Source: an uncultured Ruminococcus sp. (GTDB taxonomy: Bacteria; Bacillota; Clostridia; Oscillospirales; Ruminococcaceae). From it: 64,000 nucleotides of DNA. Below the pieces are notes generated by a model. That model saw only the letters and a program-made list of their open reading frames with translations. It made no database searches and was not told where the DNA came from. This document shows positions 52,327-60,611 of the stretch, one piece after another (positions within the stretch are counted from its first letter, which is position 1; each line of letters begins with the position of its first letter). The position numbers and the translations under genes were made by a program. The stretch covers positions 62,001-126,000 of the forward strand of contig CANQJV010000002.1 of NCBI GenBank assembly GCA_947624295.1, read 5' to 3'.

Positions 52327-52355
52327 AGTATACCACTTTTCTGTAAAAATGTAAA
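52327..52355 (-). promoter_or_regulatory. Promoter of the hyp-comM-rodA operon
   Basis: On the minus strand TTTACA (52355-52350), 17-bp spacer and TATACT (52332-52327) with a TGG extended -10. Confidence 0.65.
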
Positions 52356-52475
52356 TATAAACGGATAATTTTTACTGAATATTTTTGTGGGAAACTATAA
52401 TTGTATAAAAATAACAAAAAACCGGATATTTATATGTAAAAATCCGGCGTATTTACTGAAAATGCAAAAAACATC

Positions 52476-52504
52476 TTGACAAATTTGGAATAATATGATA
52501 AAAT
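52476..52504 (+). promoter_or_regulatory. Promoter of rpoB
   Basis: TTGACA (52476-52481), 17-bp spacer, TAAAAT (52499-52504). A hairpin CCGGAT/ATCCGG lies just upstream (52422-52447). Transcription from here gives a leader of roughly 250 nt before the rpoB start. Confidence 0.65.
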
Positions 52505-52619
52505 AATATAGTATATCGATAGAAAAATACTGCTTTTTCTTTGCAAGATATTATATCACATATTCAGCATATTGTCAATAGTTTTTGCAGAATTTTTTTA
52601 TCACCAATACAAAAATTAT

Positions 52620-52681
52620 CGGACTTCCACGGAAAACAGTGCAATAAACAGCAAAAATCCATTATTTTCCGGAGAAGTCCG
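52620..52681 (+). promoter_or_regulatory. rpoB leader hairpin A (repeated before rpoC)
   Basis: Outer stem CGGACTTC (52620-52627) / GAAGTCCG (52674-52681), a CA/GA internal loop, inner stem CGGAAAA (52630-52636) / TTTTCCG (52665-52671), and a 28-nt apical loop beginning CAGTGC. The same architecture and the sequence TTCCACGGAAAAC occur at 56713-56761. Confidence 0.75.
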
Positions 52682-52694
52682 TCAGCAATTGCAA

Positions 52695-52727
52695 TATATC
52701 TGCTGTTTATTTTTAACAACAGATATA
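52695..52727 (+). promoter_or_regulatory. rpoB leader hairpin B
   Basis: TATATCTG (52695-52702) / CAGATATA (52720-52727), one C-A mismatch, then TGTT/AACA. It sits between hairpin A and the ribosome site AAGGAGG at 52745. Confidence 0.65.
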
Positions 52728-52759
52728 AAGTCCAAAATAAATATAAGGAGGTTTCGCCT

Positions 52760-55700
52760 ATGGTGAAAGTTACACCTAAACAGCTGGGAAAAAATGTCAG
52801 AATGAGTTTCGGTAAAATTACCGAACCGCTGGAAATGCCGAACCTTATTGAAGTTCAGAAAAACTCATATAAGTGGTTCAGGGAAGAGGGCTTGAAAGAA
52901 GTATTCCGTGATATGACGGCAATTACAGACTATAACGGCAATCTCGTCCTCAATTTCAAAGACTACCGTTTTGATGATACTCCCAAATATACCCTCGCTG
53001 AATGTAAGGCAAGAGGTGCTACGTATCAGGTTTCGATGTGGGCAACTGCTATACTCTGTAATAAAGAAACAGGTGAAGTCAAGAAAAATGATGAGATTTA
53101 TATGGGCGATTTCCCTCTTATGACCGACAGCGGAACTTTCATTATCAACGGTGCTGAACGTGTTATCGTATCACAACTTGTGCGTTCACCGGGTGTTTAT
53201 TATTCAGTCGAAAAGGATAAAACCGGTAAGGACCTTTTCAGTACGACGGTTATCCCGAACAGAGGTGCATGGCTTGAGTACGAAATGGACTCGAATGATA
53301 TTGTGTACGTCCGTATCGATAAGAACAGGAAAATCCCGATTACTACATTTATACGTGCTTTAGGTATAAGTACAGATGATGATATATATGAATTTTTCGG
53401 CGAAGACGAAAGACTGAAACAGACTATTCTCCAGAAAGACCAGACGAAAAACAATTCCGAGGCACTTATTGACGTTTACAAGAAACTCCGTCCGGGCGAA
53501 CCTCCTACAGTTGAGAGTGCTGTAACTCATCTGAATAATCTTTTCTTTGATGCGAAAAGATATGACCTTTGCCGATTCGGAAGATATAAGTACAATAAAA
53601 AATTAGGTATAGCTTCACGTCTTGCAGGACATACGCTTTCAGCACCTGTTGTGAATCCGATTACAGGCGAAGTTATGGCGGATACAGGCGAAACAGTAAG
53701 CTACAGCAAGGCTTGTGAAATCGAACAGGCAGGCGTATACAGTGCATTTGTTACTGTAGAAGCAAAAGAATATTACACAAATGAAAACGGCGAAACACAA
53801 GTACGTTTTGTTGAAAGAGTTGCTAAAATTATCGGCAACGGTATGGTTGACATAAAGGGCTATGTTGATTTTGATGCCGAAAAATATGGCATAAACGAAA
53901 AAGTTTCGTTCAAAGTCCTCCGTGAAATCATTGAAAATTCAGCTGATGCCGAAGAACTTGAAGAAAATGTCAGGAAAAAGGCTGACGAACTTGTTCCGAA
54001 ACATATTATTCTTGACGATATTTTTGCAACAATCAGCTATTTCATCAATCTTTGCGAAGGTGTAGGCACTGTTGATGATATTGACCACCTCGGTAACAGA
54101 CGTATACGTTCAGTCGGCGAACTTCTTCAGAATCAATTCCGTATAGGTTACGCACGTATGGAGCGTGGTATCCGTGAGAGAATGAATATTCAGACTCAGG
54201 ACGGAAGTGCCCTCACACCGCAGTCACTTATCAATATAAGACCTATTTCCTCATCAATGAAAGAATTTTTCTGTTCGTCACCGCTTTCGCAGTTCATGGA
54301 CCAGAATAACCCGCTTGCCGAACTCACTCACAAAAGACGACTTTCAGCACTCGGACCGGGAGGACTTTCAAGAGACCGTGCCGGATTTGAAGTACGTGAC
54401 GTACACTACAGCCACTACGGAAGAATGTGTCCTATCGAAACGCCCGAAGGTCCTAACATCGGACTTATCTCGTATCTTGCAACTTTCGCAAGAATAAACG
54501 AATACGGCTTTATTGAAGCTCCGTACAGGAAAGTTGACAAGAAAACAGGAATTGTAACTAATGAAGTTGAGTACATGACAGCTGATGTCGAGGATAATTT
54601 TGTAGTAGCGCAGGCGAATGAACCGCTTACAGAGGACGGTAAACTTGCAAGACCACGTGTAAATGCACGTCACCGTGACCAGATTCTTGAATGTGACCGT
54701 GATATAGTTGACTACATGGACGTTTCTCCGAAAATGGTTGTATCAGTTGCAACTTCAATGATACCGTTCCTTGAAAACGATGACGCAAACCGTGCCCTTA
54801 TGGGTTCGAACATGCAGAGACAGGCAGTACCGCTCCTCAAGACCGAAAGACCATTTGTCGGCACAGGTATGGAGTATAAAGCTGCTGTTGACTCGGGAGT
54901 ATGTATTGTATCTGACTGCGACGGTACAATAAGTTATGTTGATGCTGATAAAATCAATGTTATCGGTGACGACGGCATTGAACGCAAATACGAACTTATC
55001 AAATTCAAGCGTTCAAATCAGGGTACTTGCGTAAATCAGCGACCTATTGTTTCAGTAGGTGACAGTGTGAAAAAAGGCGATGTACTTGCAGACGGACCTG
55101 CTACGGCAGACGGTGAAATTTCCCTCGGAAAAAATGCACTCATCGGCTTTATGACGTGGGAAGGCTACAATTACGAAGATGCCGTACTTCTTAATGAAAG
55201 ACTTGTCCGTGAAGATGTATTCACTTCTGTTCATATCGAGGAATATGAGATAGAATGCCGTGATACTAAACTCGGACCTGAAGAAATCACCCGTGATATA
55301 CCTAACGTAGGTGATGATGCACTTGCAAATCTTGACGAAAACGGTATTATCAGAATCGGCTCGGAAGTTACAGCAGGTGATATTCTTGTTGGTAAAGTAA
55401 CTCCTAAGGGCGAAACTGAACTGACAGCAGAAGAACGTCTCCTCCGTGCGATTTTCGGCGAAAAAGCACGTGAAGTGCGTGATAATTCGCTTAAAGTACC
55501 TCACGGTGAAGCCGGTGTTATAGTGGACGTAAAAGTGTTCACAAGGGAAAACTGCGAGGAACTCAGCGCAGGTGTAAATATGCGTGTTATCTGCTATATT
55601 GCGCAGAAACGTAAGATAACAGTCGGCGATAAAATGGCAGGCCGTCACGGAAATAAGGGTGTTGTATCGAGAATACTCCCTGAAGAAGATATGCCGTTCC

Positions 55701-56707
55701 TCCCGGACGGAACTCCGCTTGATATCGTTCTTAACCCTCTGGGCGTACCGTCACGTATGAACATCGGACAGGTACTTGAAGTACATCTCGGTATGGCTTG
55801 TAAAGCACTCGGCTGGCATATTATGACACCTGTATTTGACGGCGCACATGAGGACGATATAAGAGAATGTTTCAAGCAGGCAAATGAATATAACAAAATG
55901 CACAAAAATGACCCGTTTGAACTTAAAACTATGGACAAAGTCATAAACCCGAAAGCCCTTGAATTTACTGAAGACTGTAAGTTCACCCTCTACGACGGAC
56001 GTACAGGTGAAAAATTTGATAACCGTGTAACAGTCGGCTATATGTATTACCTCAAACTGCATCACCTTGTTGATGATAAGATTCACGCACGTTCCGTAGG
56101 ACCTTATGCACTCGTAACACAACAGCCTCTTGGCGGTAAAGCACAATTCGGCGGACAGCGTTTCGGTGAAATGGAAGTATGGGCTCTTGAAGCATACGGT
56201 GCAGCTTATACACTTCAGGAAATCCTTACTGTAAAATCAGATGATACAATCGGACGTGTGAACACATATGAGGCTATTGTAAAAGGTCAGAATGTACCTA
56301 CTCCGGGTATCCCTGAATCATTCAAGGTTCTTATCAAGGAAATGCAGTCACTCGGACTTGATGTGAGAGTGCTTGACGAAAATCAGGAAGAAATTGACCT
56401 CAAACAGGAATTTGATGATGACCCGATTCCCGCAAAAGACACTTACACGGAAGAAGAAACTAATGACCTTAACAGTTATTCTGATGATGAAATGGGCGAC
56501 AGCGGATTCAGAGTCGGCGAAGATGAAAAAGATATTGACATGAATATTGATATGGACGATGATTTTGACCTTGATTCCCTTGATAAGGATGAGGAGTATA
56601 ATTTTGATGCCGACGAAAACGAAAATGATGATGACCTTTTCGGCAGTGACAGCGAAGATGATGAAAATTTCGATATTCTTGATATTGATGACCCGTTTGA
56701 CGAATAA
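52760..56707 (+). CDS. rpoB: RNA polymerase beta subunit
   Basis: Catalytic core subunit with RpoC. I start at ATG 52760 ([20 protein letters not shown]), with AAGGAGG upstream. The 1315-residue protein shows the rifampicin-region motifs ([39 protein letters not shown]), [10 protein letters not shown] and the C-terminal [20 protein letters not shown]. It is about 120 residues longer than Bacillus RpoB, mainly due to an acidic C-terminal tail of roughly 95 residues (last 70 mostly Asp/Glu, with [13 protein letters not shown]). It has its own promoter rather than following rplJL in this window. Confidence 0.97.
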
Positions 56708-56712
56708 TTAAA

Positions 56713-56761
56713 CAGATTTCCACGGAAAACGGTGCTGTATGCCTGTTTTCCGGGAAGTCTG
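56713..56761 (+). promoter_or_regulatory. rpoB-rpoC spacer hairpin A'
   Basis: Outer stem CAGATTTC (56713-56720) / GAAGTCTG (56754-56761), inner stem CGGAAAAC (56723-56730) / GTTTTCCG (56745-56752), apical loop GGTGCTGTATGCCT. Compared with the rpoB leader hairpin, outer pair 2 changes from G-C to A-T, a compensatory substitution, and pair 5 from C-G to T-G. Confidence 0.75.
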
Positions 56762-56771
56762 ATAAGAAGCC

Positions 56772-56846
56772 ATACACGGTGGAGATTATACTGAACTTTT
56801 TTGCGGAATTATAACAGATTTGGTATATCTGCCGTGTACCGTGTAT
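56772..56846 (+). promoter_or_regulatory. rpoB-rpoC spacer long-range stem with alternative partners
   Basis: ATACACGGT (56772-56780) pairs perfectly with ACCGTGTAT (56838-56846). A second copy CCGTGTA (56832-56838) immediately before can also pair with TACACGG. Inside lies CAGAT...ATCTG, echoing rpoB leader hairpin B. It ends about 24 nt before the rpoC ribosome site. Confidence 0.6.
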
Positions 56847-56882: not shown

Positions 56883-59800
56883 TTGAAATTTAATACTTTT
56901 GAATCAATTAAAATCGGTCTTGCTTCGCCGGAACAAATCAGAAGCTGGTCATATGGTATTGTTACAAGACCTGAAACCATAAACTACAGAACACAAAAAC
57001 CTGAAAAAGACGGTCTTTTCTGCGAAAAAATATTCGGACCAACTAAAGACTGGGAATGCCACTGCGGAAAATTCAAGAAAATCCGTTTCAAAGGAAAAAT
57101 ATGTGACCGTTGCGGAGTTGAGGTAACAAGGGCAAGAGTACGCCGTGAAAGAATGGGCAGAATTGAACTTGCAGCACCTGTTTCACATATATGGTATTTC
57201 AAAGGTACTCCCTCAAGAATCGGTCAAGTGCTTGAAATTTCGCAGAAACGTCTTGAAGAAGTCCTCTACTTCACAAAGTACATCGTTACAGACCCCGGTA
57301 CTACCGAACTTACTAAAAAACAGCTCCTTTCAGAAAAAGAATATCTCTCGTATCTCGAAAAATACGGCGATGATTTCAAAGCTGAAATGGGTGCGGAGGC
57401 TATTCAGAAACTCCTCAATGAATATGACCCCGAAAGATACGATGCTCACAAGGAAAGACTTGTTGAACTCGGTAAAGTTGCGATTACAGGCAGAAAAGTA
57501 GAGTGCCGTAAGAATCCTCTTGAGTGCGGCTGCGAGGAATGCCGGAAATTCGCACTTCTTACTGATGTTGAATGGAAAAATAATATAGAACTTTGTGCCG
57601 ATGACCTCAAAAATGAACTTGTCGGACTTCCGGCAGGTCAGAAAAAAGTAAAACTTATAAAAAGATTGCAGATTATAGAGGCTTTCCGTATTTCAGGCAA
57701 TAAGCCCGAATGGATGATACTGAACGTTATCCCCGTAATTCCGCCTGACCTCCGTCCTATGATTATGCTTGACGGCGGACGTTATGCGACTTCAGACCTG
57801 AATGACCTCTACAGACGTGTTATCAACAGAAATAACCGCCTTATCAAAATGATTGAACTCGATGCCCCTGATATTATCGTGAGAAATGAAAAACGTATGC
57901 TTCAGGAGGCTGTAGATGCTCTCATCGACAACGGCAGACACGGCAGACCTGTTACAGGTCCAAGCAACCGTGCATTGAAATCGCTTTCAGATATGCTGAA
58001 AGGTAAACAGGGACGTTTCAGACAGAATCTTCTTGGTAAACGTGTTGACTATTCGGGACGTTCTGTTATTGTCGTAGGTCCTGAACTCAAAATGTATCAG
58101 TGCGGACTTCCGAAAGAAATGGCTCTCGAACTTTTCAAGCCGTTTGTACTCAAAAGACTTGTCGATAAAAAGGCAATTGCAAATATCAAGTCCGCAAGAA
58201 AACTGATTGACCGTGCAGATAATAAAGTATGGGACGCTCTTGAGGACGTTATCAAAGACCACCCTGTAATGCTTAACCGTGCCCCTACACTGCACCGTCT
58301 CGGCATTCAGGCTTTTGAACCGATACTTGTTGAGGGACGTGCAATCAAGCTCCACCCGCTTGTATGTTCAGCATTCAACGCCGATTTTGACGGTGACCAG
58401 ATGGCTGTACACCTTCCGCTTTCCGCTGAGGCGCAGGCAGAAGCAAGATTCCTTATGCTTGCGGCAAATAACCTGCTCAAGCCGTCGGACGGTAAACCGG
58501 TAGCAGTTCCGTCGCAGGATATGGTACTCGGCTCGTATTACCTTACAATGGCAAAACCGGGTGAACTTGGCGAGGGTAAAGTGTTCCGTGATGTGAATGA
58601 GGCTCTTATGGCTTATAATGAACATGATGTTTCGCTCCACGCAAATATCAAGGTCAGAATTACAAAGGATATAGGCGATAAGAAAGTTTCAAAGATTATC
58701 GATGCAACTGTCGGCAGGCTTATTTTCAATGAAAATATTCCGCAGAATCTCGGTTACGTTGACAGAACAAATTCAGATAAGCAGTTTGACCTTGAAATTT
58801 CGTTCCTCGTAGGCAAAAAGAAACTTTCCGATATTATCGAACGCTGTATCAAAATCCACGGTACTACAACGACTTCGGAGGTACTCGACAGAATAAAGGC
58901 TCTCGGCTATAAGTACTCAACAAGAGCAGCTCTTACAGTTGCTGTATGCGATGCCACAATTCCTCCGCAGAAAAAGGAAATCCTTGCAAAAGCAGATGAG
59001 GAAGTACAGGAAATTACTGAAGAATATAACTACGGCTATATTTCCGCACAAGAAAAATCATCTAAAATAGTAGCACTCTGGACGGCAACAACAGACGCTG
59101 TTACAAATGCACTTAAAGCGAATTTCGACCCGTATAACCCTATCTGGATGATGGCTGACTCCGGTGCGAGAGGTTCTATTTCACAAATCAGACAGCTTGC
59201 CGGAATGCGTGGACTTATCGCCAATACTTCGGGTGCTGTTATTGAAATCCCTATCAGAGCTAATTACCGTGAGGGACTTAATATCCTCGAATACTTCATT
59301 GCATCACGTGGCGCAAGAAAAGGTCTTGCTGATACGGCACTCCGTACGGCTGACTCAGGCTACCTGACAAGACGACTTGTTGATGTTTCGCAGGACGTTA
59401 TTATCCGTGAGGAAGATTGCGGTACTACTGACGGCATAGAAGTATTTGAAATCACAAACGGCAAGGAAGTAGTAGAACCGTTGTCAGAAAGACTTGTCGG
59501 CAGATTCCTTGTTGATGATTTGAGAGATGACTCCGGTGAACTTATCGTTTCAAAGAATAAACTGATAAATGACGCTGATGCAAAGAAAATTATAGATGCA
59601 GGAATCGAAAAAATAAAAATCCGTTCAGTACTCCACTGTAAGGCGAAAACAGGCGTATGCGCAAAGTGCTACGGTGCTAACCTTGCATTCAATAACATTG
59701 TATCAGTCGGTGAGGCTGTCGGCGTAATTGCAGCGCAGTCAATCGGTGAACCCGGTACACAGCTTACAATGAGAACGTTCCATACAGGCGGTGTTGCTTC

Positions 59801-60611
59801 AGCTGATGCGGAAGATATTACACAAGGTCTGCCTCGTGTAGAGGAACTCTTTGAAAGCAGACGTCCGAAAGGTGCGGCTATTCTTTCAAGAATTTCGGGA
59901 ATTGTTCATATTGAGGAAGTAAAAACAACAACAAATATCATTGTAACAAATGACGAAACAGGCGAATCAGAAAATTACATGATACCTTATAACCTCAAGA
60001 AACGTGTTACAGAGGGCGAAAAAATTACAAAGGGTACAAGGCTTACTGAAGGTAATGTTTACCCGACAGATATTCTCAATATCCTCGGTATACAGGACGT
60101 TCAGAACTACATCATCAACGAAGTACAGAAAGTTTATCGTTTACAGGGTGTTGACATCAATGACAAGCATATTGAAGTAATCGTCCGCCAGATGTTACGT
60201 AAAGTCAAGATTGATGAGAGCGGTTCAAGCTATCTGCTCCCCGGAACTCTTGTCGATTACAAGGAAATTGCAGAGATAAATGCCGAAATACAGGCACGTA
60301 TAGATGCAGGCGAATATGATTTGCAACTCGTGCAGTATACTCCCGTTCTTCAGGGTATCACGAAAGCATCATCAAATTCAGACAGTTTCATGTCGGCAGC
60401 ATCATTCCAGGAAACAACTAAGGCACTTACAGATGCAGCAATCAGAGGTAAGAGCGATAAACTTCTCGGACTCAAGGAGAACGTTATTATCGGTAAACTT
60501 ATTCCTGCCGGTACAGGTATGGACTGCTATAACCACGTGAAAGTTGTGAAAAGCGACTCATCATCTTCTGTAATTGACCATAGCGTAAATGTAACAAATC
60601 AGATAGGCTGA
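56883..60611 (+). CDS. rpoC: RNA polymerase beta' subunit
   Basis: Catalytic subunit with the active-site Mg motif [13 protein letters not shown]-terminal zinc site ([20 protein letters not shown]), [20 protein letters not shown], the trigger-loop region ([20 protein letters not shown]) and the second zinc site ([17 protein letters not shown]). The start is TTG 56883 with AGGAGG seven bases upstream. At 1242 residues it is normal for Firmicutes. It lies 175 bp after rpoB, an unusually long spacer that contains hairpins. A bidirectional terminator follows. Confidence 0.97.

Follow-up and report, generated by a model that had tools for sequence, protein, structure and literature searches.

Why would an rpoB-rpoC operon carry two look-alike RNA hairpins, one ahead of each gene, and what might they do there? 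We addressed this question in a 64,000-nucleotide (nt) stretch of DNA from an uncultured Ruminococcus sp. (the window; contig CANQJV010000002.1, positions 62,001 to 126,000), where hairpin E1 lies in the rpoB 5′ untranslated region (UTR; 52620..52681, + strand) and hairpin E2 in the rpoB-rpoC spacer (56713..56761, +). To our knowledge, how bacteria other than E. coli set the amount of their RNA polymerase is poorly known, and the initial annotation of the window had considered the pair as a possible RNase III processing site, a protein-binding regulatory site or an autoregulatory element equalizing beta and beta′ synthesis. Our analysis favors the first of these and points to a pair copied within this lineage, whose spacer stem may act in RNase III-type processing and in separating the stability of the two messages, a reading to which we give a probability of roughly 45%. 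Taken alone, the hairpins represent an unremarkable variant, specific to this lineage, of a structured rpoB-rpoC spacer. The stronger feature of the locus, judged at the level of sequence, appears to be a very strongly conserved reverse promoter in the rpoB leader.

Genomes and regions compared

The source assembly comprises 69 contigs and 2.06 Mb (85% complete), and its nearest named relatives are Ruminococcus metagenome-assembled genomes, including Ruminococcus sp. SC0345_S12_1 and R. flavefaciens NALB_7863_3. In the window, rpoB (52760..56707, +) has an ATG start, chosen by agreement with relatives, and rpoC (56883..60611, +) has a TTG start, which is common in relatives; the spacer between them is 175 nt long. 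rpoB leaders and rpoB-rpoC spacers were taken from 82 genus regions plus the window. The 77 genus genomes having both a leader and a spacer were used to compare the two, and 79 genus spacers, including that of the window, were folded (4 of 83 were skipped for length). Core searches also covered 60 family rpoBC regions, some of them cut by contig ends, and 80 named loci around the rpoB start, R. flavefaciens FD-1 (L289) among them, formed a separate collection overlapping with the first genus set. One genome, G203, carries two rpoBC loci (L129 and L173) that differ in leaders and spacers, and is possibly a mixed assembly.

Structure and likeness of E1 and E2

The coordinates, common sequences and spacer length given in the initial annotation were correct. 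E1 folds at −23.7 kcal/mol (z = −6.2) and E2 at −31.6 kcal/mol (z = −7.6), with 0 of 200 dinucleotide shuffles as good in either case. E1 is built from an outer stem, CGGACTTC/GAAGTCCG, and an inner stem, CGGAAAA/TTTTCCG, while E2, which begins at the 6th nt past the rpoB stop, has a predicted stem of 21 pairs. GAYTTCCACGGAAAACRGTGC is common to leader and spacer, with 19 of 21 columns identical, and the two align locally with a score of 17, a value that 3 of 3000 shuffled pairs attained. These values bear out the annotation's view that RNA structure, not chance similarity, underlies the two elements, and the outer-stem changes on which it drew (G-C to A-T and C-G to T-G) are present and keep the pairing. 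Its description of one common two-stem plan held in part: the plans are similar but not identical, as the outer and inner stems meet at a 2×2 internal loop (CA/GA) in E1 and at a single bulged A in E2.

The window's own leader-spacer score was the highest among the 77 genus genomes, followed by that of L040 with 11. Among all cross-genome leader-spacer pairs, one scored 18 (L131 leader, L111 spacer) and one 16; a score of 17 is by itself not unique, and the relatedness of E1 and E2 is further supported by the matching register of their stems. The likeness between the L131 leader hairpin and the L111 spacer hairpin, the highest of 5852 cross-genome pairs, could reflect leader-spacer relatedness in another subclade or chance among that many pairs.

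As strong hairpins within untranslated regions, E1 and E2 could in principle be intrinsic terminators or attenuators. They are followed by TCAGCAATTGC and ATAAGAAGCC, respectively, and because there is no U-run after either stem, we consider this reading very improbable. Nor do they behave as dispersed palindromic repeats of the repetitive extragenic palindrome or miniature inverted-repeat transposable element type, of which many copies would be expected: the 85%-complete assembly has two copies only, both in rpoBC, and among the inspected near-matches to the 18-mer core in the own genome, the eight best of 16, the 3′ arm occurred only in E1 and E2. The annotation had not recognized a known leader, and we likewise obtained no Rfam family match for the hairpins. 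The L10 leader precedes an operon including rplJL and rpoBC in many bacteria; neither it nor other curated leaders in Rfam gave a gathering-level match in the window or in the regions of 20 relatives. At E-values up to 10, seven weak Rfam matches appeared (snoRNA-like, RT-2, thermometer), none of them over E1 or E2.

Search for the pair in relatives

We built a covariance model, R1, from E1 and E2. In the source genome it found both copies (E = 1.7 × 10−22 and 1.8 × 10−14) and, besides these and their own reverse strands, no match below E = 3. Applied with stricter filters to 124 other genus genomes, it gave no credible match. The matches at E ≤ 0.1 in 13 other genus genomes (L201-L213) were rejected as homologs, since inspection showed hairpins that look unrelated and stretches that are AT-rich or resemble coding sequence; the best (L201 in G225, E = 1.6 × 10−4) has a strong stem, shares only the short core CGGAAA/TTTCCG and lies 6 kb from the rpoC start. 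The core with at most one mismatch was found in none of the 60 family regions, some of them truncated as noted, and in 1 of 80 genus regions, L163, as a lone 5′ arm without a 3′ arm, while the exact core was found at 0 of the 80 named loci.

On the same strand, similarity between a genome's own leader and spacer was not raised: own pairs had a mean rank of 0.61, and 2 of 77 ranked below 0.05. Reverse-complementing one side brought 7 of 77 own pairs below that rank, slightly above chance. The latter pairs and the cross-genome scores of 18 and 16 run weakly counter to non-conservation. On the model, core and own-pair searches of genus and family regions, we rejected a conserved leader-spacer pair, and with it the support for an autoregulatory pair that balances beta and beta′; the initial annotation had itself named absence from relatives as evidence against its proposal, and the paired elements were not found in the 124 genus genomes, 60 family regions and 80 named loci.

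The two closest genomes (99% identity over 139 amino acids of RpoC) have neither E1 nor E2 and a shorter leader, and the spacer of the closest relatives is 84 nt long with one strong hairpin. In a MAFFT alignment E2 appears as an insertion whose gap boundaries coincide or nearly coincide with the hairpin ends. Because E2 is also similar to the outer portion of the spacer hairpin in the relatives, the aligned sequences do not distinguish insertion from local derivation.

The spacer stem across the genus

rpoB-rpoC spacers are structured across the genus, with 66 of 79 at z < −2 and 52 at z < −3, and their sequence differs almost entirely between subclades. The position of the stem is conserved: its median start is the 17th nt past the rpoB stop, its median length is 16 bp, and it reaches at least 11 bp in 69 of 75 cases. 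For control, open reading frames (ORFs) were called in ten 20-kb pieces of each of two relatives, plus the window, which yielded 101 codirectional spacers. The 61 control spacers without a terminator-like site had a median z of −1.31, compared with −4.16 for 77 rpoBC spacers matched in length range, 15 of which have such a site. Among the 62 terminator-free rpoBC spacers, 43 were below z = −3, and they were more structured than the 61 controls (one-sided P = 1.6 × 10−7, phylogeny ignored).

Covariation was assessed in two of the four listed subclades. Both sides had changed in 6 of 13 pairs in subclade A2 (13 sequences), with 96.4% of cells paired, and in 4 of 12 pairs in subclade A3 (6 sequences), with 100% of cells paired; the paired-cell share fell to 23–56% in all slid versions. 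The covariation that the initial annotation expected of its stems is present in the spacer hairpin as a class in both subclades. Leaders are less structured (31 of 78 at z < −2, median −1.6).

RNase III processing stems span ~11–20 bp or more, and E2 and the genus spacers have stems of this kind in an untranslated region. The source genome encodes an RNase III domain (PF14622 match, E = 1.2 × 10−43). E2 fits the genus class of spacer stems, and E1 is its look-alike before rpoB.

Explanations for the hairpins

Under the reading that we prefer, E1 and E2 would be related copies of a single mRNA hairpin that this lineage acquired in the untranslated regions ahead of rpoB and of rpoC, whether through copying inside the operon or because a palindromic unit was inserted. 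E2 would occupy the site where most of the examined Ruminococcus have one long, sequence-unrelated stem after the rpoB stop. Such a stem could serve as a double-stranded RNase III site or as an exonuclease barrier, separating the rpoB and rpoC messages and letting them differ in stability, and E1 might have the same role at the rpoB 5′ end. A sequence-blind role of this type is suggested because the genus keeps the stem but not the stem sequence, and the close sequence match between E1 and E2 is probably best explained by copying in this lineage. A comparable case is the operon of RNA polymerase genes in E. coli, which has a processing site between rplL and rpoB; the Ruminococcus stem instead follows rpoB and precedes rpoC, and its look-alike occupies a separate rpoB leader. 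Processing of the E. coli rplJL-rpoBC transcript by RNase III was reportedly described by Barry et al. in 1980.

Several observations weigh against this reading. Controls are themselves structured, the full set of 101, terminator-like ones included, reaching a median z of −2.50 and 15 of the 61 terminator-free ones falling below z = −3; the P value, moreover, disregards phylogeny, and control genes were predicted with a simple ORF caller. The A2 alignment slid by −3 still has 5 pairs changed on both sides, against 6 in register, and 27 of 500 shuffles of A3 reach the observed 4. The spacer hairpin is slight or missing in L050, L135, L150, L153 and L157, and E1 has no clear counterpart class because leaders are much less structured. 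E2 may moreover descend from an ancestral spacer hairpin, as both contain AGATT..CACGG..AAGTC, and the 19 of 21 identical columns of E1 and E2 exceed what a sequence-blind role needs, which favors recent copying or a protein site.

That excess of shared sequence over what structure alone demands would also be expected if the hairpins were a small mobile or template-switch palindrome without a function of its own, inserted twice in the operon, as would their absence from the closest relatives and the aligned gap boundaries at or near hairpin ends. We nevertheless regard such an origin as unlikely, though it is the alternative that we take most seriously: a 2.06-Mb assembly that is 85% complete contains only two copies, both in rpoBC; the differences between E1 and E2 preserve pairing; and no target-site duplication was seen by eye. 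No credible source was found among phages, plasmids or viral contigs, with no exact-pattern match in IMG/VR, none to E1 in plasmids, and a single 20-base phage match that is not credible (E = 0.7). The same stem sequence at equivalent places before rpoB and rpoC might otherwise mark binding of one protein, be it RNA polymerase, a ribosomal protein or some other factor, through which beta and beta′ synthesis would be coupled, and the complementarity of the E1 loop to leader sequence downstream of E1 and ahead of the rpoB ribosome site would suit a regulatory site. The E2 loop lacks comparable complementarity, however, none of the relatives examined yielded the pair, Rfam gave no match, and same-strand own-pair similarity was not raised in the 76 other genus genomes, L040 standing marginally apart, all of which makes a shared binding protein improbable in our view.

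A putative convergent promoter module in the rpoB leader

Upstream of E1, the leader contains two promoter-like sites that face each other. Consensus scoring placed a forward rpoB site, TTGACA-17-TAAAAT, at 52476..52504 (+) and a reverse site, TTGACA-17-TATAAT with an extended −10 (TGA), at 52550..52578 (−), inside the rpoB 5′ UTR. An intrinsic-terminator-like hairpin (52413..52449, −; CCGGAT..ATCCGG, then TTTTTTG) would end the reverse transcript, and an antisense RNA of 120–130 nt is predicted from reverse promoter to hairpin.

Scoring used the 12 consensus positions of TTGACA and TATAAT at spacings of 16–18 bp only. The reverse promoter matched 12 of 12 positions in 75 of 76 genus members, the window included, and lay 41–47 nt away from the forward −10. 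L123 is the exception: a different forward site was picked there by the script, and the reverse motif is visible in its leader. Across 375 shuffles of the scored regions, 11 of 12 was reached once and 12 of 12 never. The 80 named loci gave the reverse promoter, again at 12 of 12 positions, in 78, all with an extended −10, and the two exceptions have <200 nt upstream. An extended −10 accompanies 75 of 75 reverse promoters vs. 21 of 75 forward ones, in a set selected for the whole module. The exact two-promoter pattern occurred in 88 of 125 genus genomes, while a reversed control pattern had no matches.

Reading through the match list, we found eight two-promoter matches elsewhere than at rpoB. 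Six of these were fetched, and five (L344 1076, L345, L346 2812, L347 2575 and L349) precede a gene for an XRE-type regulator; the promoters in L344 and L347, the two for which ORFs were listed, are flanked on their opposite side by a divergent gene.

The reverse promoter is not general in the wider family. At least 11 of 12 positions were matched in 12 of 56 scored family regions (two of the 56 being genus members), in L066 at another offset. The strict pattern was present in 9 of 148 family-sample genomes, one in the genus and eight among the 145 outside it, and those eight matches lie on a contig other than that of the rpoC match or 1 Mb away (G113).

We assessed whether the reverse promoter merely belongs to a divergent upstream gene. 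Upstream genes vary between species, and an ORF rule applied to 74 loci called 12 codirectional and 27 divergent, the remainder being unclear; the divergent neighbor is often comM or the gene for a 211-amino-acid protein found in the window. Four loci have a recognizable upstream gene that is codirectional with rpoB, namely L122 (ribosomal protein L28), L164 (a release factor), L110 (DUF5662) and L168 (a TraB-family protein), and each of them has a reverse promoter matching 12 of 12 positions. L157 was not counted, as ftsW is codirectional further upstream and the nearer stretch was called divergent by the ORF rule. Since the reverse promoter persists where the upstream gene is codirectional, and since the window's divergent 211-amino-acid gene has its own promoter-like site beyond the terminator-like hairpin (TTTACA-17-TATACT with an extended −10, read from the sequence at 52327..52355, −), the divergent-gene explanation is weakened.

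A terminator-like hairpin facing the reverse promoter was detected in 73 of 75 regions but also in 137 of 225 shuffles, which makes its presence weak evidence. Its position, unlike its presence, is not chance: in 53 of 75 regions, compared with 5 of 225 shuffles, the distance between the reverse start and the best terminator-like site was 117–133 nt. Read forward, the same stretch has a terminator-like site in 53 of 75, and some of these hairpins may also serve the upstream gene.

A possible polymerase-sensing circuit

Convergent promoters with a rifampicin alarm are described for helD and pps of B. subtilis (PMC12802891, as for all statements on helD and pps here). The antisense promoter of helD is dominant, has an extended −10 and produces an RNA of ~90 nt (94 in vitro) with a putative intrinsic terminator, and it holds down the sense promoter until rifampicin arrests polymerase on the antisense promoter. 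The Ruminococcus leader resembles these cases in having an antisense promoter that has an extended −10, lies in the 5′ UTR and points toward the sense promoter, in a short antisense RNA with an intrinsic terminator before the upstream gene, which at rpoB is only predicted, and in similar overall spacing. It differs in the antisense promoter spacer (16–18 bp with perfect consensus, 17 in the window, vs. 19 in helD/pps) and in an estimated start-to-start distance of ~32 bp vs. 39 bp. Unlike in helD/pps, the target is rpoBC itself, in nearly all examined genus members; none of the six mentions of rpoB in the available part of PMC12802891 names it as a target. Our literature search, which left subscription journals mostly outside, found no paper on a convergent module at rpoB or on the spacer stem. 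A study on mycobacteria (PMC6181997) reports, to go by its title, that rifampicin alters rpoB transcription.

By this analogy, rpoBC of Ruminococcus may be governed by RNA polymerase itself via face-to-face promoters, as a homeostasis circuit without a dedicated regulator, a proposal that we advance tentatively and at a little under even odds. The near-ideal antisense promoter would direct a terminated RNA of ~120 nt backward across the rpoB promoter. With active polymerase in ample supply, antisense interference would keep rpoBC low; a shortage of polymerase, or its arrest (by a rifamycin, for instance), would halt antisense traffic and let rpoBC rise. Lineage-specific hairpins such as E1 and E2 might then add a post-transcriptional layer. 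If this holds, the helD/pps alarm architecture sits on the drug target's own genes, and one element would both keep polymerase constant and answer polymerase-targeting antibiotics in gut and rumen bacteria. The genus-wide occurrence of the reverse promoter makes control of rpoBC by polymerase occupancy of a convergent promoter simply testable.

Other features of the leader, spacer and rpoB

The region of the rpoB transcript start (52505-52530; AATGTATCAATATGG and variants) is conserved across the genus. GTATCATAATGG is kept also in family members without the reverse promoter, and the window copy has diverged (AGTATATCGATAG). A leaderless peptide across the transcript start was considered and dropped, because the spacing between the two −10 boxes does not preserve the reading frame and, in the window, that frame soon runs into a stop.

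Between E1 and the rpoB Shine-Dalgarno sequence lies a second leader hairpin (52695..52727, +), which aligns with the leader hairpin of the close relative L100. The apical loop stretch of E1, AATAAACAGCA (52643..52653, +), is an exact 11-nt complement of 52701-52711 in the 5′ arm of this hairpin (shuffle frequency 0.001), and their pairing would compete with the second hairpin, making a pseudoknot or switch possible. Pairing of the E2 loop to the rpoC ribosome site, noted by eye, was not above chance in a shuffle comparison and was discarded. The spacer likewise has a second hairpin (56772..56846, +), whose counterpart in the alignment is the closest relatives' main spacer hairpin and whose loop is ~40 nt longer. 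RpoB itself ends in a long, highly acidic C-terminal extension rich in aspartate and glutamate (56430-56707).

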